A stretch of DNA of 53,557 nucleotides from Coprobacillus sp. GTDB lineage: Bacteria; Bacillota_I; Bacilli_A; RFN20; CAG-826. The DNA lies in the NCBI GenBank assembly GCA_021203905.1, contig JAJQAG010000005.1:1-53557 (forward strand). Direction: 5' to 3'. This document shows positions 5,334 to 51,139 of this stretch, in pieces (the first letter of the stretch is position 1; each line of letters starts with the position of its first letter). The position numbers were made by a program, and so were the translations under genes. The notes under the pieces are model-generated. The model was not told the origin of the DNA and made no database searches. It saw nothing but the letters and a program-made list of their open reading frames with translations.

Positions 5334-8300
5334 ATGAAAAGAAAAGCATTCCTTCTTTGTGCAGGTTTAGTCCTTACTCTATCTCTCTCTTCTTGTAGTG
5401 AGTTTGGATCGTTGATGAGTAGTCTTGATTTTACGATGAACTTTAATCCTGGTAACGCCGAAGTTGTTCCTGATGACTCCTATGACGATGGGAGTGACCC
5501 TAGTGAAGAAGAAAGTGATGAAGTAGTAAAGAATACAGTGCACACTCATGTGTGGTCTAGTGAGTGGAACCAGAATAGTGAGACCCACTGGAAAGTGTGT
5601 ACTAGCTGTGGAAAGATTGACTATCAAAGTGGCCATGATTTAGTCTACACGATACTCGATGGGACCAAGCATGAAGAGAGATGTGAAATCTGTGGCTATG
5701 TCAGTGAAGTGGAACACACCATTGAATATGAAGTCTTAGAAACAAGTAATCAACACCAAGCCAAGTGTGATGTCTGTGGTTATAAGGCCACTCCTGAGAG
5801 TCACTTCCTTAATATGATTAATGAAGGGGAAGAGATGCACCACACCGAATGCAGCGTCTGTAGTTATGTCAGTGAAAGTGAGAGTCATAAATTAGTGTCT
5901 ATCTCCACAAACGAGGAGTATCACACAGTCTCATGTGAGGAGTGCTCCTATAGTGTGAATATTGTCCACACTCTCTCTTATGCTTCTGTTGGAGATTCTC
6001 TCCACGAGATCTCATGCACAGAGTGTAACTACGCTGTTTATGAAGATCATAGTATCGAATATTATGACGACGATGAAGACAGTGAAGATGGTTTATATCA
6101 CCACGCAGAATGTTTAATCTGCAATTATGTTGGTCCCCAAGAGGAGCATCACTATGGTTATCATAAGTATGATGTTTATTATCACAATATCATCTGTAAT
6201 GAATGTGCGAAGAGTAAGAGATCTCAAGGACATGACCTTGTCTACATCCCTGTGGATAGTAGTTATCACCAAGTAAAATGCACTATCTGTGACTATATAG
6301 AAGAGGAAGTCTCTCATAATCTCTTCTATACCACTGAAGGGAGTGAGACTCACCACACCTCTTGTTCCACTTGTGGATATAGCAGCGGGAGTGTCCCCCA
6401 TGAATTTAACTACACAAACCTTGGTGAAGTCTATCATAGTGCGGAGTGTCCGTGTGGAGAAGTTAAATCCGCAGAAGGACACACTCTAGTATATACTGAT
6501 ACAGGAGATGATACCTGTCATGAGGTTAGTTGTACCTATTGTAATTATCAAGTAGAAATAGCGCACGATTATACTTATACCATGCTCTCTATAGGTAGTA
6601 GTGGTTATCATGAAGCGGCCTGCTCTATCTGTGGTCACCACATCGAAGAAAAACACACAATTGGATATGAAAGCGATGATGATACTTACCACCACGAAGT
6701 ATGTACACTATGTAGTTATGCTAGCACTGACCAACTGACCCACGAGTATGACTTTGTCTCCGCGAGTAGTACTTCTCATATTGAAGTTTGTAAATATTGT
6801 GAGCATGAGACCGAACCAGTAGATCACATCTTGGGCTATACAGATAATAATAATGGCACTCACCACGAAGAGTGTGACATCTGTGGTTATAGTGCGGACA
6901 TCAATCACACACTTGAATATGAAGCCGTAGATGATGATGTTCACGCGGAGAAGTGTGTCTATTGTACTTATCAAGAAGACTCTGCGCCTCATGATAAATA
7001 TGTTTCCATTACCGATGAGAATAGTCATACGACTATGTGCTATGGATGTGACTATGAAAAAGTAGAAACCCACACAAACGCAGGGGATACTAATAGTAAC
7101 TGTGAGGTTTGTAAATTCTCTGCGGGATTAAGCTATTCTACTACTTCTCTCTCTGGTAAAGGAACCTATAGTGGCACAGTCCTAGGGATACCAAATAGCT
7201 ATAATAGTTATCAAATCACCACAGTTAATAGCAGTGCCTTTAGTGTTAGTGGTGGTAATGGCTATACCGAAATTATTATCCCCAAGAACATGACCACGAT
7301 TAATAGTAATGCCTTTAGATATTGTTATGATTTAACAACCCTCACATTTGAGCCGAATAGTAATTTAACGAAGATTAATAGTTACGCTTTCGAATATTGC
7401 TATGTTCTAGAAGAGTTAACTATCCCTTCAACGGTGACGACAATAGGTTCAAATGCCTTCCGCAATTGGGATACAGAAGAGCAGGAGGATGGAGAAGTTA
7501 TCGAATATGGAAGCAGTTTAAGAAGCATTACTTTTGAAGAGGGAAGTAAAATAACAACTTTAGATTTATCCGCTTTCTATGGTTGCAACCATCTCGAGTC
7601 TGTAAATATTGAAGCCTGCACAGAACTCACTACAATCGCTAACTACGTCTTCTATAGATGCTCTATTTTAGAAAACATCAATCTGGGTGCATGTAGCAAA
7701 CTATCATCCATTGGTGATTATGCTTTCTATAATTGCTATGCTTTGAGCGTGGATCTAAATCTTGAAGACTGCACAAACCTCACATCCATTGGACAAAGTT
7801 CCTTCTATCAGTGCTATGCACTGAAATCCATTCATCTCCCCTCATGTCTAACAACAATGGGTAAATACTGCTTCTATGGTTGTCATGCAGTGGAATCTAT
7901 TTCCTTTGGAGAGGATACTCAACTTCAATATATCTCATATTGTAACTTCTACGATTGTCAATCACTCACTTCCATAACTATCCCTAAGGGCATCTCTTAT
8001 ATTGATAACTGGGCATTTAGAGATGCCGAGGTCATGACCACTTTAACCTTTGAAACTGGATCTATTTGTGAATCAATTGGTGATTATTCATTCTATCTTG
8101 GTTACGCATTGAAATCACTAATAATACCCGCGACAGTGAAGAGTATTGGTATTTATGCCTTCTGCAACTGTACAAGTCTTGAAACCTTGTCTTTTGAGCC
8201 AGGAAGTCAACTTGAAAGTATTGAGTCTCGCGCCTTCTATGGTTGTTCATCATTAACATCTATTATTATTCCTGCCTCTGTGAGTTATATCGCTGGAGGC

Positions 8301-9515
8301 GATACTGATGATAGTGGAAGCACTAAGGTTGGAGCCTTTGCCTATTGTACATCTCTTGGATCAGTGGTCTTTGAAGATAATAGCCAATTTAATGATTGGT
8401 CACGACTAGAGAGTATCTTTAATAAAGACACTATTGACCTCGATTTAAGAAACACTGGAATTACTGAAATTGAAAGTGGAATGTTTGAAAATAGCTCAAT
8501 TAGGTCTATCAGACTACCCGCGACAGTAACCTCTATAGGAGCGAATGCTTTTAGTGGCGCTTCGAATCTTGAGAATGTGGTCTTTGCTAGTGGGAGTCAA
8601 TTGACCTCTATAGGAGCGAATGCCTTCTCTAACACTCCATCACTCACCACCTTTGAGGTTCCCGCTTCTGTCACAAGTATTGGAAAACAAGCTTTCTGCT
8701 ACTCCCACTCTTCTAGTTATAACTGCTACCTTGAATCATTGACCTTCGAAGAAGGAAGTCAACTAACATCTATTGGAGATGATGCCTTCCGCGGGGCCAC
8801 AGACCTTGCCACTATGAACCTTGAAGATTGTACTTCTCTTACCTCTATTGGTTCTTACTCCTTTGCAGATGCTCATCTCTTAGATCACATTACGATTCCC
8901 GCAAGTCTTACTTCCTTTGGTAATCGTGCCTTTACCTATTGCTATGGAGCGAAGACCATTACCTTTGAAGAAGGTAGCCCCTTAACATCTATTTCTGATT
9001 ATGCCTTCCGTGATTGTAACTCTGTGACTGATATTACTCTTCCTAGTGGTGTAAAGACTATTGGAAGTTATTCATTCTCAGATTGCTATGATCTTGTCAA
9101 TATTAACTTTGATGAGTGTGCGAACCTCTCTGAGTTTGATAGTTATGCTTTTTATAAATGTAACTCTCTTGAAGAGATAAGATTTGTGAGTCCAATTAGC
9201 ACAGTGGATAACTATTCTTTTGCCAACGCGACAAGTCTTCGATATCTCTTCTTTACCAATAATGGATCTACGCAGTGTACTCTTAAAGCCAATTGTTTTA
9301 ATGGTTGTTCGGCCTTAGAGGCTCTTGTACTTCCATCATCTATAAGTTGGCCACTTTTTAGTTCTAGTCAGTTCAATAACTGTCCCAGCACCTGCATTGT
9401 CTACTTAAATGGTAATAGCACAATCACTTCAAGTTCTTATGGACTTAAAAACTGTACTCAATATAAGTCTGGTGCTTGGGCTTGGGGTGATGATGGTTAC
9501 CCCTATGTCCTATAA
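5334..9515 (+). CDS. Giant surface lipoprotein: about 19 His/Cys modules plus long BspA-type LRR domain
   Basis: 1393 residues. The signal peptide MKRKAFLLCAGLVLTLSLSSC ends at lipidated Cys21. An acidic linker runs to about residue 68. Residues 70-590 hold about 18 modules of 27-32 residues, each with His-x(2-3)-CxxC and a His at the boundary (CTSC, CEIC, CDVC, CSVC ... CEVC), plus one variant with CPC. Residues 600-1390 are about 30 LRR_5/BspA repeats ending in a WAWGDDGYPYVL tail. No catalytic motif was seen; a surface adhesin or metal-binding role is inference. There is no clear Shine-Dalgarno sequence before the ATG. It is a close paralogue of the next gene, with near-identical DNA over the signal peptide and over the first LRRs. 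Confidence 0.9.
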   Translation: MKRKAFLLCAGLVLTLSLSSCSEFGSLMSSLDFTMNFNPGNAEVVPDDSYDDGSDPSEEESDEVVKNTVHTHVWSSEWNQNSETHWKVCTSCGKIDYQSGHDLVYTILDGTKHEERCEICGYVSEVEHTIEYEVLETSNQHQAKCDVCGYKATPESHFLNMINEGEEMHHTECSVCSYVSESESHKLVSISTNEEYHTVSCEECSYSVNIVHTLSYASVGDSLHEISCTECNYAVYEDHSIEYYDDDEDSEDGLYHHAECLICNYVGPQEEHHYGYHKYDVYYHNIICNECAKSKRSQGHDLVYIPVDSSYHQVKCTICDYIEEEVSHNLFYTTEGSETHHTSCSTCGYSSGSVPHEFNYTNLGEVYHSAECPCGEVKSAEGHTLVYTDTGDDTCHEVSCTYCNYQVEIAHDYTYTMLSIGSSGYHEAACSICGHHIEEKHTIGYESDDDTYHHEVCTLCSYASTDQLTHEYDFVSASSTSHIEVCKYCEHETEPVDHILGYTDNNNGTHHEECDICGYSADINHTLEYEAVDDDVHAEKCVYCTYQEDSAPHDKYVSITDENSHTTMCYGCDYEKVETHTNAGDTNSNCEVCKFSAGLSYSTTSLSGKGTYSGTVLGIPNSYNSYQITTVNSSAFSVSGGNGYTEIIIPKNMTTINSNAFRYCYDLTTLTFEPNSNLTKINSYAFEYCYVLEELTIPSTVTTIGSNAFRNWDTEEQEDGEVIEYGSSLRSITFEEGSKITTLDLSAFYGCNHLESVNIEACTELTTIANYVFYRCSILENINLGACSKLSSIGDYAFYNCYALSVDLNLEDCTNLTSIGQSSFYQCYALKSIHLPSCLTTMGKYCFYGCHAVESISFGEDTQLQYISYCNFYDCQSLTSITIPKGISYIDNWAFRDAEVMTTLTFETGSICESIGDYSFYLGYALKSLIIPATVKSIGIYAFCNCTSLETLSFEPGSQLESIESRAFYGCSSLTSIIIPASVSYIAGGDTDDSGSTKVGAFAYCTSLGSVVFEDNSQFNDWSRLESIFNKDTIDLDLRNTGITEIESGMFENSSIRSIRLPATVTSIGANAFSGASNLENVVFASGSQLTSIGANAFSNTPSLTTFEVPASVTSIGKQAFCYSHSSSYNCYLESLTFEEGSQLTSIGDDAFRGATDLATMNLEDCTSLTSIGSYSFADAHLLDHITIPASLTSFGNRAFTYCYGAKTITFEEGSPLTSISDYAFRDCNSVTDITLPSGVKTIGSYSFSDCYDLVNINFDECANLSEFDSYAFYKCNSLEEIRFVSPISTVDNYSFANATSLRYLFFTNNGSTQCTLKANCFNGCSALEALVLPSSISWPLFSSSQFNNCPSTCIVYLNGNSTITSSSYGLKNCTQYKSGAWAWGDDGYPYVL

Positions 9516-9557
9516 TTAGGACAACATTAATATTCCAGTCTTAATATTAAGAATATT

Positions 9558-9588
9558 AAGAACGAACTTTGTTCGTTCTTATTTTTTT
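9558..9588 (+). terminator. Rho-independent terminator
   Basis: AAGAACGAAC, loop TTT, GTTCGTTCTT, then a T-rich run of seven T after one A. Confidence 0.88.
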
Positions 9589-9594
9589 GTGTGC

Positions 9595-9623
9595 TTGTTT
9601 TTTTTTTTTTTTGTAAATATAGT
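9595..9623 (+). promoter_or_regulatory. Poly-T spacer promoter, fourth lipoprotein gene
   Basis: TTGTTT (9595-9600) and TATAGT (9618-9623) are exactly 17 bases apart. The first 12 bases of the spacer belong to a run of 15 T (9598-9612). The transcript would start near 9630, giving a leader of about 100 bases. Confidence 0.6.
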
Positions 9624-9730
9624 AGATAGTGTAAGTGCCCCTAATATACATAGTATATTGGTCCACATACTAGGAATATTACATACATAGTTTTATATAA
9701 AGTATATAAAGAAGGTTCTACTCTCTAGTT

Positions 9731-12700
9731 ATGAAAAAGAAAGCTTTACTTATTTGTGCGGGTTTAGTCCTTACTCTATCTCTCTCTTCTTGTAGTGAGT
9801 TTGGATCGTTGATGAGTAGTCTTGATTTTACGATGAACCTTAATCCCGGTAACGCCGAAGTTGTCCCTGATGAAGATACTAGCGCTATGGCGGATGACGA
9901 AGAGGAAGAAGAAGTTGTTAATAAAGCCCATGTCCATAGTTGGGAAGAGGGGTGGAGCAATAATAGTGAGAGTCACTGGAAGGTCTGTTCCACCTGTGGA
10001 AAGATTGACTATCAAAGTGGTCATGAACTTGTCTTTAATGCCCTAGATAGCACCCACCACGAAGAAAGTTGTGAAACCTGTGGTTATGTCGCTGAAGTGG
10101 AGCACACCCTGACTTATGATATTTTAGAGACCACCAACCAACATCAAGCGGTCTGTACAATTTGTGAATATAAGGCCACTCCTGAGAGTCACTTCTTAAA
10201 GATGGTCAATGAAGGTAGTGATATGCATCACACCGAGTGCAGTGTGTGTGAATACATCAGTGAGAGTGAATATCATAAACTAGCCGCGGTTTCTATTAAT
10301 GACCAGTATCACACACTCTCATGTGAGGAGTGTTCCTATAGTGTGGATATTGTCCACACTATCTCTTATGATTCTTGTAGTGACACCGAACACAAGATCT
10401 CTTGCACAGAGTGTGACTATGCTGTTTATGAAGATCACACCATCGAATATTACGATGATGATGAAGATAATACTGATGGAGCATACCACCACAGCGAATG
10501 CTTAGTCTGTAATTATAGGACTGAGCCAGAAGAACACGATTATGGATACAATACAAGTGATAAGTATTATCACTATATTCAATGTAAACAATGTGCAAAG
10601 AGAAAAGGGAGCGCGGGTCACACTTTTATCTATCAAGCATGCGATGTCGAGCAACATGCGATTACTTGCCAAGATTGTGATTATGAAGAGTTAGTGGATC
10701 ACAATGCTGTTTATACAGATCTAGGGGATGAAGGTCATTTCTTTTACTGCCGAACTTGTGAATATCAAAGTGAAGTACTCCCCCATGAGTTTAACTATGC
10801 CTCTCTCGGATCGGTTTATCATAGTGCGGTGTGCTTATTCTGTAATGAGATAATCTCTAGTGAAGGGCACGATCTTATTATGGAAAGTGCGGATGATGAA
10901 TATCACACTGTCCGCTGCAGCGCCTGTAGCTACGAAGAAAAGATTAAACATAATTATGAATACACTATTGTGAGCTATGGGGCTAGTGGTCTCCATAAAG
11001 GTGTGTGTACAGATTGTGGACACACTATCGAAGAAGAACATGTCGTGGAGTTTGCTCCAAGTAGTGATGGGAGCAGCCACCACGAGGCTTGCACTTTATG
11101 TGCGTGGGCAAGTGAAGAAGAACTCAACCACGAGTTTGAATATAACTCCACAGGTTCCACAACGCACTCTGTGATCTGCTCATATTGCCACTATGAGGAT
11201 ACCCCTCAAGATCACACTCTTGAATACACCGATAATAATGATGGCACTCACCATGCCTATTGTGATGTCTGTAAGTATAGTGCGGATCTTAATCACACTC
11301 TTGAATATGAAGCCGTAGATGATGAGACTCACGCGGAAGCGTGTCTCTACTGCACTTATCAAGAAAATGCCGCCCCTCACGATAAATACTATTCCATAAC
11401 TGATGAGAATTGTCATACGACAATGTGTCGTGGATGTGACTATGCATCTAGTCCTGAAAGTCACAATATTAGCGATGGAAACTGCGAAGTTTGTAAGTTT
11501 GCCTCAGGCTTAAACTACTCAGGTAGTTCCGTTACGGGTAAAGGAAGTTATAGTGGCACAGTCCTAGGGATACCAAATAGCTATAATAGTAATCAAATCA
11601 CCACAGTTAATGGCAGTGCCTTTAGTGTTAGTGGTGGTAATGGCTATACCGAAATTATCATCCCCAAGAACATGACCACGATTAATAGTTATGGTTTTAG
11701 ATACTGCTATGATTTAACAACCCTCACATTTGAGCCAAATAGTAATTTAACGACGATTAATAGTTACGCTTTCGGATATTGCTATGTTTTAGAGTCTTTA
11801 ACCATTCCCTCGAGTGTCCAAACCATTGCCGCGGAGGCCTTCTATTATCCTGAAGGATTAGAGACCCTAGAGTTTGAAGAAGATAGTCAACTGACGACGA
11901 TTGGTAACTATGCCTTTGCTTATGCCCTGACCTTAGAGACAATTACTATCCCTAAGAGTGTGACCTCTATTGGTAACTATGCCTTCCGTACCTATTACTC
12001 ATCCACCGTGGATGGAGAAACAGTCTACCACTACGCAAACTTAAAGTCAGTGGTCTTTGAGCAAGGGAGCCAGCTCACCTCTATTGGTCAAGATGCCTTC
12101 TATTACAACATTACTTGTGAGTCCATTAATCTTGAGGCTTGCAGTGAACTGACCTCTATTGGTACTTATGCTTTCGCTTATAATGAGGCTCTGACGTCCA
12201 TTACTATTCCCGCTTCACTCACAAGTATTCCAGATCAAGGCTTCCGTGAGTGCTATGCTTTAGAGTCTCTCACATTTGCTGAAGGAAGTCAGTTAGAAAG
12301 TATTGGTCAAAGCGCCTTCTATGACTGTTATGTCTTAAAATCGCTTGTTCTTCCAGAACACGTTAATTCCCTTAGTAAGTGGAGTTTTTATCATTGTTAT
12401 GCCCTTGAAGAATTAGTCTTCCCTAAAGACACTACTATAGAAACCATCCCATATTCTTGCTTTAACCATTGTGATGTTTTAAAAGAACTCACTATTCCTA
12501 GTAGTGTGAGAGAGATTGATGAATATGGTTTCTATGATTGTTATGCTCTTGAGACACTAACATGGGAGAGTCCCGCGCAAATTCAAATTATTTTGGATTA
12601 TGCCTTCTGGCATTGTGAATCCCTAGAAGAGCTCACTCTCCCTGCATCCTTAGTGACCACAGGATATGGTTGCTTTGCTTGTCCTTATTCTTTAAAGACC

Positions 12701-13960
12701 CTTACCATCGAAGCGGGTAATAATATTGAAATCCTGGCCCATGATATCTTTACTAGTTGTTACGCCCTAGAAACTGTGAACTTTGGTTATGGAGTTACTG
12801 ATACGATTCTAGATACCTCAGTCTTCTATAATTGTAATTCTTTAAAACAGATTGTCATTCCCGCGAATGTCACTGAGATTGCGGATTGGGTCTTCTATGG
12901 TTGCAATCAGATGACAAATGTCACCTTTGAAAGTGGCAGTCGCCTAACAAGCATTAGTTTTAATGCCTTCTATAATTGTAATTCTCTCGTCAGTATTAAC
13001 TTTGAGAATTGCCAAGACTTAACATTCATTGATTATAGTGCGTTCTATAAGTGCTCCTCTTTAACATCAGTAACCTTCCCCGCAAATCTCGAAGAGGTAG
13101 GAACAAATTGCTTCCAAGGTTGTACCTCTCTTGAGACGGTTGACTTCGAGTATGGAAGTAAGATCGAGAGTCTTACCAACTTCTGTCTCAGTGATAGCAG
13201 TGCTTTAAGAGAAGTGGTTTTTGAAGGTAATAGTCAATTAGCGAGTATCGGCTCCGCTGAATTCCAGGATGTGACCACTCTCGAAGTCTTTGACTTTGGA
13301 GAGAACAGCAGTGTCTCCTCGATTGGTAAGAATGCTTTTAATAACACGAGAGTGAGTGATGTCTTTATCCCTGCAAATGTGACATCGATTGGTGACTATG
13401 CCTTCTGCTACCACTACACAAGTGGATTACTTGGCACGACAGACCACTACGATGGTTGTTGGGTGGAACATCTGACCTTTGAGGAAGGAAGTAAACTTAC
13501 TGAGATTGGGCAACATGCCTTCCATGGATGTACAGATCTAGAGACTCCTAACTTTGAAGCCTGTACAGCACTTACGACGATCAGTACCTATGCCTTCTAT
13601 GAATGCAGTCTCTTCAAAGAGATTAGACTTACTGGTGCAATAACCGAACTTACACAATATGTTTTCTATGGATGTACAAGTCTTGAATATCTCTTATTTA
13701 CAAATTCTTCAAAGGTTACTCTTAGACAATACTGCTGTTATAACTGTACTTCGATGATTGCAATCGTCCTCCCCTCTTCTGTTACTTTTGCCTCTATGGG
13801 CTATTATCAATTCACAAATATTCCTAGTACTTGTGATATCTACTTAAATGGAACAAGTACCCTTTCTCCTAACTCGAAATGTGGTATTGGTAGTGTCACT
13901 CAACACAAGTCCGGTACATGGGCTTGGGATGAGAATGGTTATCCTTATGTCATCTCATAA
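9731..13960 (+). CDS. Giant surface lipoprotein, paralogue of the preceding gene
   Basis: 1409 residues with the same plan as its upstream neighbour: signal peptide MKKKALLICAGLVLTLSLSSC (Cys21), acidic linker, about 19 His/Cys modules (residues 66-590; CSTC, CETC, CTIC ... CEVC), then LRR_5/BspA repeats to the end with the tail WAWDENGYPYVIS. The module array is collinear with that of the paralogue, but the LRR part has diverged in sequence and repeat order apart from its first 80 residues. A long signal-peptide segment and the LRR entry are almost identical at DNA level, which suggests gene conversion. It has its own poly-T promoter and its own terminator. Confidence 0.9.
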   Translation: MKKKALLICAGLVLTLSLSSCSEFGSLMSSLDFTMNLNPGNAEVVPDEDTSAMADDEEEEEVVNKAHVHSWEEGWSNNSESHWKVCSTCGKIDYQSGHELVFNALDSTHHEESCETCGYVAEVEHTLTYDILETTNQHQAVCTICEYKATPESHFLKMVNEGSDMHHTECSVCEYISESEYHKLAAVSINDQYHTLSCEECSYSVDIVHTISYDSCSDTEHKISCTECDYAVYEDHTIEYYDDDEDNTDGAYHHSECLVCNYRTEPEEHDYGYNTSDKYYHYIQCKQCAKRKGSAGHTFIYQACDVEQHAITCQDCDYEELVDHNAVYTDLGDEGHFFYCRTCEYQSEVLPHEFNYASLGSVYHSAVCLFCNEIISSEGHDLIMESADDEYHTVRCSACSYEEKIKHNYEYTIVSYGASGLHKGVCTDCGHTIEEEHVVEFAPSSDGSSHHEACTLCAWASEEELNHEFEYNSTGSTTHSVICSYCHYEDTPQDHTLEYTDNNDGTHHAYCDVCKYSADLNHTLEYEAVDDETHAEACLYCTYQENAAPHDKYYSITDENCHTTMCRGCDYASSPESHNISDGNCEVCKFASGLNYSGSSVTGKGSYSGTVLGIPNSYNSNQITTVNGSAFSVSGGNGYTEIIIPKNMTTINSYGFRYCYDLTTLTFEPNSNLTTINSYAFGYCYVLESLTIPSSVQTIAAEAFYYPEGLETLEFEEDSQLTTIGNYAFAYALTLETITIPKSVTSIGNYAFRTYYSSTVDGETVYHYANLKSVVFEQGSQLTSIGQDAFYYNITCESINLEACSELTSIGTYAFAYNEALTSITIPASLTSIPDQGFRECYALESLTFAEGSQLESIGQSAFYDCYVLKSLVLPEHVNSLSKWSFYHCYALEELVFPKDTTIETIPYSCFNHCDVLKELTIPSSVREIDEYGFYDCYALETLTWESPAQIQIILDYAFWHCESLEELTLPASLVTTGYGCFACPYSLKTLTIEAGNNIEILAHDIFTSCYALETVNFGYGVTDTILDTSVFYNCNSLKQIVIPANVTEIADWVFYGCNQMTNVTFESGSRLTSISFNAFYNCNSLVSINFENCQDLTFIDYSAFYKCSSLTSVTFPANLEEVGTNCFQGCTSLETVDFEYGSKIESLTNFCLSDSSALREVVFEGNSQLASIGSAEFQDVTTLEVFDFGENSSVSSIGKNAFNNTRVSDVFIPANVTSIGDYAFCYHYTSGLLGTTDHYDGCWVEHLTFEEGSKLTEIGQHAFHGCTDLETPNFEACTALTTISTYAFYECSLFKEIRLTGAITELTQYVFYGCTSLEYLLFTNSSKVTLRQYCCYNCTSMIAIVLPSSVTFASMGYYQFTNIPSTCDIYLNGTSTLSPNSKCGIGSVTQHKSGTWAWDENGYPYVIS

Positions 13961-49003: not shown

Positions 49004-49030
49004 AAAACCGTCTTCTCGACGGTCTTTTTA
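49004..49030. terminator. Bidirectional terminator between tRNA-Leu and the Cys-rich lipoprotein gene
   Basis: ACCGTC, loop TTCTC, GACGGT with a T-run on the + side and an A-rich stretch on the other, so it can end both convergent transcripts. Confidence 0.8.
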
Positions 49031-49051: not shown

Positions 49052-51043
49052 TTAGCCTTCTTCTACTTCAAGTTCAGGTGGAACATAAGTCACGATTAAG
49101 TTTCTTCCACTCATCTGTTTTGTGGTGTCACTAGAGATATAACCAGTCTTATCAAGATCATAGTCCGCATAGTCATTAACGAAGGTTCCTTCATAGATGA
49201 ACTCACTAAGGTTTTCAGAGTAGATCATTCCGGTAAAGGTTCCTCCAGCAATGTTCACATGCACATAGTTAGGAATCACATTACAGGTGCATCCACACTC
49301 ACACTCAGTGGCGCACCCACAATCACAATCTTCCCCTTCACACTCACATTCGCATTCGTCTCCACAATCTTCGCATGTGCACCCTTCATCGCATTCGCAT
49401 TCGTCTCCACAATTATCGCAAGTGCAGTCATCCCCGCATTCGCCCTCGCACTCAGTGTCACATTCACAGTTACCTTCGCACTCGCACTCGCATTCGCAAT
49501 CTTCGTCGCAAGTACAACCACACTCGCAGTCAGGGACACATCCGCATTCGTCACATTCACATGTACATTTGCAAGTTTCACACTCACAAGGGGATACAAG
49601 GCTTACTTGATAGATAGCGTATGGACCTTCATGAATCTCTTCATTATCAAATCCACCCACAATGGTTCCGCTAGAGATGCTGACATTAATTCTATCTTCG
49701 CCAGTATAGATAATCGCAATACCCACTCCAGAAGTGGTATTGGTAGTATCATCGTAATTAAATGTTCCTTCAGCCTCGATATAGACATGTTCCTTACCTT
49801 CGGCAACATCTTCGATATTTAAGGTGCCACCTTTAATTTCAATTGCGGTGTCACCGCAGATATAACCACCAGTAATGTTACATGTTGTATGTTCAGCATT
49901 AAGACTAATCGCCGTGCTATTTTCGGAGACTATTTCTCCATCGCGGATATTAACCACTGAAGCATCAGTTTCATCTTCACTCATATTGACAATCTTATTA
50001 GTGATAATTGCGGGCCCGTCAACTGTCTCTATCTCACCACTATAGAAGTTAAAGGCAATGTGGTCATTTTGAGTGACAATCTCTTCTTCGTCCTCTTCTT
50101 GTTCACAACATTCACACTGACACTCCTCACCACACTCACCATTTTCACAATCTTCACAAGCACACTCTTCACATGTGCATGAATCACATCCACACTCACA
50201 AGCCTCGAGAGGTTGAACAAGATTTTCAGGTTCTATTTGTTCATTATTAATTGGTTCCGTGCCAATAATGACCACTCCATTGTTATCGGAAAGGATTGTG
50301 GCGCCGTAGACATTACAACTAGCGGTATCGTTTAGTTTAATTGCGGTGTCACTAGCGCTGATTTCTGCGCTTTCTTGTAGGCTGACACTACCTTCTCTAG
50401 TCGCGGCAATCGCCGTGCCCCCTTCGCTTTCATTATCAATGACACCATAGACGGAGAGAGTTCCTCCTTCTACAGAAACAAGTTCGTCCACCCCACTTGT
50501 GGCCACAAAGGAAACCCACTCACTGGTTTCTAGATAACCCGTATTACCAACGGTAATACCACTTCCAGAGAAGTGGACAGTTCCATCTCCCACAGGGATG
50601 GATTCATATTCTTCGTCTTCGTCTTCATAATCTTCATATTGAGAGCCTTCACTCACAATAGAGAGAGATCCTAAGACATTGAGACCATCATTCACATATA
50701 AGTCATAACCATTAAGGTCAAGAGTTACACTCGCACGACGAGAAACTGCTACAGTACTATTTAAAGTAATATTTTGCTGGAGCATTTGTGTTCCAGATTT
50801 GTTCATAGCATCTTCTAAAGCATCCTCACCATCAATGAGGAAGGTGCGGCCTTCAGTGTTACTGACAATATCTCCAATCGCGCCACAGGCAGTGCAGTAT
50901 TCATACCAGTCACCTTCAAAATAGGCAACAGTATCACCAGAGTCATAAGTATGAACATGAACTACTCGAAAGTAAAAAGTACAACCACTGAGGGTTAATG
51001 TCGAAAGAGCAATAACTGTAGCAAGAATAGGTGTTTTACGCAT
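49052..51043 (-). CDS. Lipoprotein with beta-helix-like body and two metallothionein-like Cys/acid-rich inserts
   Basis: 663 residues from the ATG at 51043; the reading frame is open upstream, but this start gives a direct lipoprotein signal MRKTPILATVIALSTLTLSGC (lipidated Cys21). Near residues 25-55 is one His/Cys module (HVHTYDSG ... YCTACG) as in the island proteins. The body (about 60-475) repeats short strands of the type VNIRDGEIVSENSTAISLN, ITGGYICGDTAIEIKGGTLNI, typical of parallel beta-helix polymers. Two inserts of CxC/CxxC runs interrupt it: residues about 280-312 (13 Cys in 32) and about 485-587 (38 Cys in 102), with Glu and Asp almost everywhere else and hardly any Lys. Metal sequestration at the surface is inference. 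Confidence 0.85.
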   Translation of the reverse strand: MRKTPILATVIALSTLTLSGCTFYFRVVHVHTYDSGDTVAYFEGDWYEYCTACGAIGDIVSNTEGRTFLIDGEDALEDAMNKSGTQMLQQNITLNSTVAVSRRASVTLDLNGYDLYVNDGLNVLGSLSIVSEGSQYEDYEDEDEEYESIPVGDGTVHFSGSGITVGNTGYLETSEWVSFVATSGVDELVSVEGGTLSVYGVIDNESEGGTAIAATREGSVSLQESAEISASDTAIKLNDTASCNVYGATILSDNNGVVIIGTEPINNEQIEPENLVQPLEACECGCDSCTCEECACEDCENGECGEECQCECCEQEEDEEEIVTQNDHIAFNFYSGEIETVDGPAIITNKIVNMSEDETDASVVNIRDGEIVSENSTAISLNAEHTTCNITGGYICGDTAIEIKGGTLNIEDVAEGKEHVYIEAEGTFNYDDTTNTTSGVGIAIIYTGEDRINVSISSGTIVGGFDNEEIHEGPYAIYQVSLVSPCECETCKCTCECDECGCVPDCECGCTCDEDCECECECEGNCECDTECEGECGDDCTCDNCGDECECDEGCTCEDCGDECECECEGEDCDCGCATECECGCTCNVIPNYVHVNIAGGTFTGMIYSENLSEFIYEGTFVNDYADYDLDKTGYISSDTTKQMSGRNLIVTYVPPELEVEEG

Positions 51044-51139
51044 ATCACATATAATAACCGATAAAAGGAAAAATATAAACAACCAAAATGAAATAATAAA
51101 TATTTACTATATTTAATCGAGAGAAAATTGTCCTTAATC

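Follow-up and report, generated by a model that had tools for sequence, protein, structure and literature searches.

Known bacterial metallothioneins are small, cytosolic proteins (PMC7558416; PMC8790569), some of which are controlled by SmtB/ArsR repressors (PMC8790569). Cys-rich copper storage proteins also exist: Csp1 and Csp3 use many Cys per chain for Cu(I) storage (PMC7558416). Cys is generally avoided in the exported proteins of Gram-positive bacteria, a tendency termed 'cysteine exclusion', and in the Lactococcus lactis membrane proteins Llmg_0524 and Llmg_0526 a CX2CX10CX2C motif binds zinc (PMC4628341). In the open-licence papers searched, we met no account of metallothionein-like modules on lipoproteins of bacteria.

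The window, which is the whole stretch of 53,557 nucleotides analysed here, encodes a lipoprotein with two Cys inserts that share with SmtA/BmtA, NmtA and MymT a very high Cys content in CxC/CxxC spacing, about one third of their residues being Cys in these motifs. Those metallothioneins are small and cytosolic and have no signal peptide, whereas the modules described below are acidic and lie within lipoproteins of 600-700 residues, outside the membrane; the window protein itself has 663 residues and a lipoprotein signal peptide, and is thus neither a small stand-alone protein nor, by its signal, a cytosolic one. Csp1 and Csp3 are pre-folded four-helix bundles, while the modules consist of low-complexity CxC sequence in which no helix is predicted. 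Llmg_0524 and Llmg_0526 likewise present a Cys motif in Gram-positive membrane proteins, but this motif has four Cys, forms one site and has no acidic CxC run. Against the background of cysteine exclusion, exported proteins with tens of conserved and densely packed Cys are a clear exception.

The window belongs to a 790 kb draft genome, 97% complete and in five contigs, which is probably a MAG; judging from the kind of organism, its source is probably an anaerobic gut commensal, a small bacterium of the Bacilli class. The lipoprotein gene is a single uninterrupted minus-strand frame (49052-51043, ATG to TAA) of 663 residues plus stop. Its N-terminus, MRKTPILATVIALSTLTLSGC, reads by eye as a type II signal peptide at residues 1-21 (50981-51043, minus strand) with the lipobox LSGC at residues 18-21, which ends in the predicted acylated Cys21. 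The sequence-only reading, which had proposed a lipoprotein signal and had named frame errors as a danger to its claim, is upheld on both points, since the lipobox is present and the 663 codons contain no internal stop. An intrinsic terminator lies 3' of the stop codon (49004-49026, minus strand), with a 9-pair stem including 4 GC pairs followed by a T-rich tail. A possible promoter, TTTATA-17-TATTAT (51051-51079, minus strand), ends 7 bases before the ATG, so that the transcript may be leaderless; its 9/12 match is weak, such matches occurring at background frequency. Neither a metal regulator nor a transporter adjoins the gene.

Insert 1, CECGCDSCTCEECACEDCENGECGEECQCECC, covers residues 282-313 (50105-50200, minus strand) and contains 13 Cys in 32 residues with a net charge of -11. 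Insert 2 covers residues 486-587 (49283-49588, minus strand) and contains 38 Cys in 102 residues with a net charge of -38, the Cys following CxC, CxxC and CxxxC spacing with no CC. Two acidic CxC/CxxC inserts with metallothionein-like composition and spacing had been noticed before, and the analysis bears them out: the earlier counts are exact, and only the coordinates were off by a few bases. The Cys spacing of the inserts is mostly 2-4, a single CC occurs in insert 1, and the two inserts together have one Lys, no Arg and no Tyr. The densest 30-residue stretch of the lipoprotein has 13 Cys; among the window's other frames of 100 or more codons the densest such stretch has 5. Shuffling this Cys-rich protein 5000 times gave no 102-residue stretch with more than 23 Cys, against the 38 observed, and within insert 2 the CC dipeptide is absent (shuffled mean 10.2, minimum 5) while CxC occurs 22 times (shuffled mean 13.7). 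The repeated 5-mers of insert 2 have 51% of codons in common, which is the level of random synonymous choice (50% for Cys), and its Cys codons are 19 TGC and 19 TGT; Tandem Repeats Finder reported only a 45-bp unit in about 2 imperfect copies. With codons randomised in this way and so short a repeat, the non-random Cys pattern is not the product of a recent DNA repeat expansion. Profile searches gave no metallothionein family at curated cut-off (NCBIfam none), the best Pfam match being Metallothio_Euk (PF12749) over insert 1 at E 0.017 and 15.6 bits, below the cut-off of 22. As the match is below cut-off and insert 1 differs from the eukaryotic metallothioneins both in composition, not being Lys-rich, and in setting, we take this likeness as convergence.

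The inserts are positioned in long acidic stretches of the lipoprotein body, which also contains an acidic loop without Cys, QYEDYEDEDEEYES (50599-50640, minus strand). No Pfam or NCBIfam family at cut-off and no PDB relative by sequence were found for this body. AlphaFold, run on the single sequence, gave short repeating strands with a pLDDT of 40 (whole protein) and 53 (residues 60-281), and Foldseek searches with these low-confidence models returned no match at E <= 0.001; many of the weak matches listed are beta-solenoids, namely ice-binding proteins, tapirins and solenoids of autotransporters. These models make a beta-solenoid the likely guess, and no more than that; the beta-helix-like body suggested by the sequence-only reading is plausible from the sequence.

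Relatives of the whole protein were searched for in 144 related genomes, with no homologue at E<=0.001; the sole non-self match in the whole-protein and insert searches, a U32-peptidase-like protein of G117, was rejected as chance. The N-terminal body had no match in the genus at E<=10, in a search run with no positive control. Other species of the genus share the neighbourhood, an AMP-binding ligase gene and nadE, but G001, G002, G003 and G015 have no counterpart of the lipoprotein at this syntenic locus as far as their contigs extend over it; that of G001 stops about 800 bases upstream of nadE. The search for Cys-rich proteins elsewhere in the window genome was by sequence pattern alone.

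The same kind of module is found on other lipoproteins of the genus. The DNA pattern C[ED]C[ED]CxC, searched in 279 genomes of the order, gave 28 sites in 19 genomes among the matches listed, and 3 in the reversed control. In the window genome it identified a 5'-nucleotidase lipoprotein (L048, 7850-9877, minus strand) with the module CTCPSCVEGCECECEGECDGECECECEC, 11 Cys in 28 residues, located within a roughly 90-residue acidic insertion inside the C-terminal domain; its nearest relatives, in G009 (39% identity) and G030 (31%), lack the insert and their sequence is continuous across the site. A second pattern, CxCxxCxC, was applied to the genus. In G001 it matched an SNase-domain lipoprotein that has four repeats of the CECGCVDCTCEDCEGCATGEECTCEECECECHE type at its C-terminus, amounting to 48 Cys in 151 residues, and the tail module CECGCVDCTCEDC of this nuclease matches the start of insert 1 at 10 of 13 residues. 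In G002 the pattern occurs in paralogous lipoproteins that have two Cys clusters at the C-terminus. G001 and G002 are independent genomes of two further species. No CxCxxCxC module was found in G003 (81% complete), and the other matches of the window's own genome and G003, as examined, were discarded as frames under 30 codons. By domain, the 5'-nucleotidase and the G001 SNase are ordinary members of the Gram-positive surface 5'-nucleotidases and thermonucleases that have an acidic Cys insert or tail in addition, which for the 5'-nucleotidase sets the carrier apart from the relatives compared. The module is thus put on several unrelated lipoprotein carriers in the genus, and the similar acidic Cys runs that the sequence-only reading had proposed to look for do occur, on the 5'-nucleotidase, the SNase and the G002 lipoproteins. 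A profile built from 13 module pieces was run over the same 279 genomes; it matched in G001 and G002 only and missed the inserts of the window protein. For this reason insert 2 is likened to the other modules and homology is not claimed. The upstream regions of the window gene and of the other module lipoprotein genes showed no shared operator. In favour of a role in metal binding, an HMA-domain copper-chaperone-like gene adjoins the Cys-tail lipoproteins of G002, where the contigs L269 and L270 have the same gene order in diverged copies, the HMA-domain gene being convergent to a three-lipoprotein operon.

The thiol state of these exported Cys was approached through the oxidases of the host. 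VKOR (PF07884) and Thioredoxin_4 (PF13462, BdbD/DsbA-like) are absent from the four genus genomes and from four other family members, in a search of these two families that gave positive-control matches in known genomes. Completeness is 72-81% for three of the four genus genomes, so that the absence is firm mainly for the window genome. A recognised disulfide oxidase, as would be expected in the host of a disulfide-stabilised exported domain, is therefore lacking as far as these two families go, which favours reduced, metal-binding thiols over disulfides. The disulfide pad that the sequence-only reading had offered as its alternative is thereby made less likely. According to this explanation the exported Cys would oxidise and either cross-link surface lipoproteins or bind thiol-rich mucins by thiol-disulfide exchange, leading to a tough coat or an adhesin. 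The exported location and the many evenly spaced Cys are in its favour, a solenoid-like body would suit an adhesin, and a host gut contains Cys-rich mucins. However, in addition to the missing oxidases, one module is located in a loop of an enzyme domain, that of the 5'-nucleotidase, and CxC spacing together with many acidic residues is unusual in folded disulfide domains and typical of metal clusters. We consider this explanation unlikely, although it is the one that has to be weighed most seriously.

It could also be argued that acidic surface linkers grow by slippage and have become Cys-rich by accident, their Cys being functionless. The modules are indeed located in acidic low-complexity loops and tails, part of insert 2 is a 45-bp imperfect repeat, and acidic CDC runs are also seen in linkers and tails of unrelated cytosolic proteins. 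The comparison of module copies speaks against such a drift. In the four repeats of the G001 nuclease, Cys is retained at each of the 12 Cys columns in every one of the six pairwise comparisons (72/72), with 20 TGC/TGT changes that are synonymous, whereas 69 of the 145 other positions differ. Similarly, the tails of the G002 paralogues keep 18 of 20 aligned Cys while 24 of 57 other tail positions differ, as do 115 of 208 positions (55%) of the bodies. Cys columns that are kept while codons and neighbouring residues change indicate that selection, and not a recent repeat expansion, holds the pattern. Furthermore, the Cys of the window inserts stay while their codons are randomised, and these inserts are almost without CC and lack Arg and Tyr, though TGY is one transition from CGY and TAY. 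Accidental growth is thus an improbable origin, and the Cys pattern appears to be functional, for which the G001 repeats and G002 paralogues provide the strongest evidence. The Cys conservation in relatives on which the sequence-only reading had made its claim depend therefore holds between module copies in other lipoproteins of the genus, no orthologues of the window protein having been found.

A redox role, in which the modules would hold Fe-S clusters, polysulfide or persulfide, or would act as a surface reductant protecting an anaerobe from oxygen, is compatible with modules that are rich in CxC and CxxC, acidic and probably reduced. Nevertheless, the profile searches gave no match to a ferredoxin-type or other Fe-S family and no redox partner gene lies beside the lipoprotein gene within the window, and we regard this role as slightly more doubtful still. 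Finally, Cys runs arising from misassembly or out-of-frame reading, for which one could invoke a five-contig draft that is probably a MAG, are very improbable in view of the intact 663-codon frame with its signal peptide and terminator, and of the same kind of module on other lipoproteins in the independent genomes of two further species.

A possible link to metal came from more distant genomes. The tightened pattern CxCxxCxC[ED]xC gave 25 sites in 392 genomes of the phylum compared with 1 in the control, most of them short or noise. In the low-GC code-4 genomes G292, G369 and G393 the match falls in a mollicute microprotein of 21-28 residues, e.g. MKNISNACNNNECTCENCTCDNCTCNK (plus strand; L306, 1465-1545; L307, 1465-1548; L305, near 1480-1543). 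Its gene has a strong Shine-Dalgarno sequence, AGGAGG, and a terminator-like stem, and lies behind a tandem pair of ATCTATATAGAT palindromes, of which one copy differs by a single change. On the minus strand, 3' to 3' with each microprotein gene, is a regulator gene of the ArsR family (Pfam HTH_5, E 1e-10 to 1e-12) (L306, 1573-1896; L307, 1587-1904; L305, 1570-1887). This layout of microprotein, ArsR gene and palindromes would fit a metal-controlled metallothionein. Similar microproteins without ArsR are found at L309 and L299. The core CTC[ED]xC[TA]C[ED]xC is common to the mollicute microproteins and insert 1 (CTCEECACEDC). SmtB/ArsR control is known for bacterial metallothioneins (PMC8790569), whereas here the ArsR gene adjoins only the mollicute microproteins with the common core; the tie to the window modules is drawn through distant genomes, and so short a core could be convergent.

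Other Cys-rich proteins were met in the searches. The sequence-only reading had attributed a shared metal role to the His/Cys-module proteins at 5334-13960, which the analysis does not support, these being long LRR_5 proteins whose His/CxxC repeat is spaced and of a different kind. They are two paralogous BspA-type LRR lipoproteins (5334-9515 and 9731-13960, plus strand) with 74-76 Cys each and many such repeats before the LRR region; by eye, one short His/Cys stretch of the window lipoprotein, HVHTYDSGDTVAYFEGDWYEYCTACG at residues 30-55 (50879-50956, minus strand), resembles this repeat (HVHTYD...YCTACG). Genes named by eye as HisRS in two genera of the order (L028, 166-1578, plus strand; L037, minus strand) have acidic Cys/His tails (CECCCGDDCECECCDGDCDCDCDCDHDADGHKCCCHNH and similar), and acidic CDC/CEC runs end cytosolic-looking proteins of the order or class at L021, L026, L020, L030, L023, L031 and L300, for which by-eye names are PduL-like, GrpE-like, DUF1292-like, HesB/IscA-like and uncharacterised small protein. 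An anaerobic ribonucleotide reductase-like frame (L310; G567:C24:13585), also read by eye, has HECKCDDCKCDNCECE between the reductase end and a glutaredoxin-like domain. Most of the collection-wide DNA matches to C[ED]C[ED]C[ED]CxxxC were rejected, being antisense or simple repeats from genomes of high GC. A crude frame filter let through 34 of 185 stretches, many of them still noise; acidic linkers of zinc-ribbon-like proteins from Clostridia are among the true ones. Of these Clostridia proteins, those at L054, L060, L157 and L169, from several species, have a zinc-ribbon-like end and CDCDCDC runs inside the acidic linker. A related pattern in viral contigs left 8 of 120 stretches past the frame filter, mostly unlike the module; a 941-residue frame on an IMG/VR contig classed viral (L366, minus strand) has 57 Cys and an acidic CxC-rich stretch.

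Taking together these data, which come from MAGs, we propose, with a probability of roughly 0.6, that the inserts are extracytoplasmic metallothionein-like modules holding soft metal ions at the cell surface. In this mechanism the reduced Cys thiolates of the flexible acidic inserts, arranged as CxC and CxxC, would gather several soft metal ions, such as Zn(II), Cu(I) or Cd(II), into thiolate clusters. These would lie on the membrane's outer face, where the lipid anchor keeps the modules at the cell surface. The Glu and Asp around the Cys may attract cations and keep the metal-free form soluble. The presence of modules on unrelated lipoproteins (solenoid-like, 5'-nucleotidase, nuclease and an uncharacterised family) suggests that the module would act as a surface metal buffer or scavenger and that the carriers would be mainly anchors. 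Metallothioneins use about three Cys per divalent ion, and by this stoichiometry the capacity for divalent ions could be a dozen or so in insert 2 and about four in insert 1.

More tentatively, and somewhat short of an even chance in our estimation, this small-genome Bacilli genus would graft a portable acidic metallothionein-like module onto unrelated lipoproteins, enzymes included, whose reduced thiols would capture and buffer metal outside the membrane, as permitted by an anoxic niche without disulfide oxidase. Were the modules oxidised, the genus would have to possess an unrecognised route to disulfides. If they bind metal, metallothionein chemistry would take place outside the cell in the form of a portable domain, which bears on the competition of host-associated bacteria for zinc and copper.
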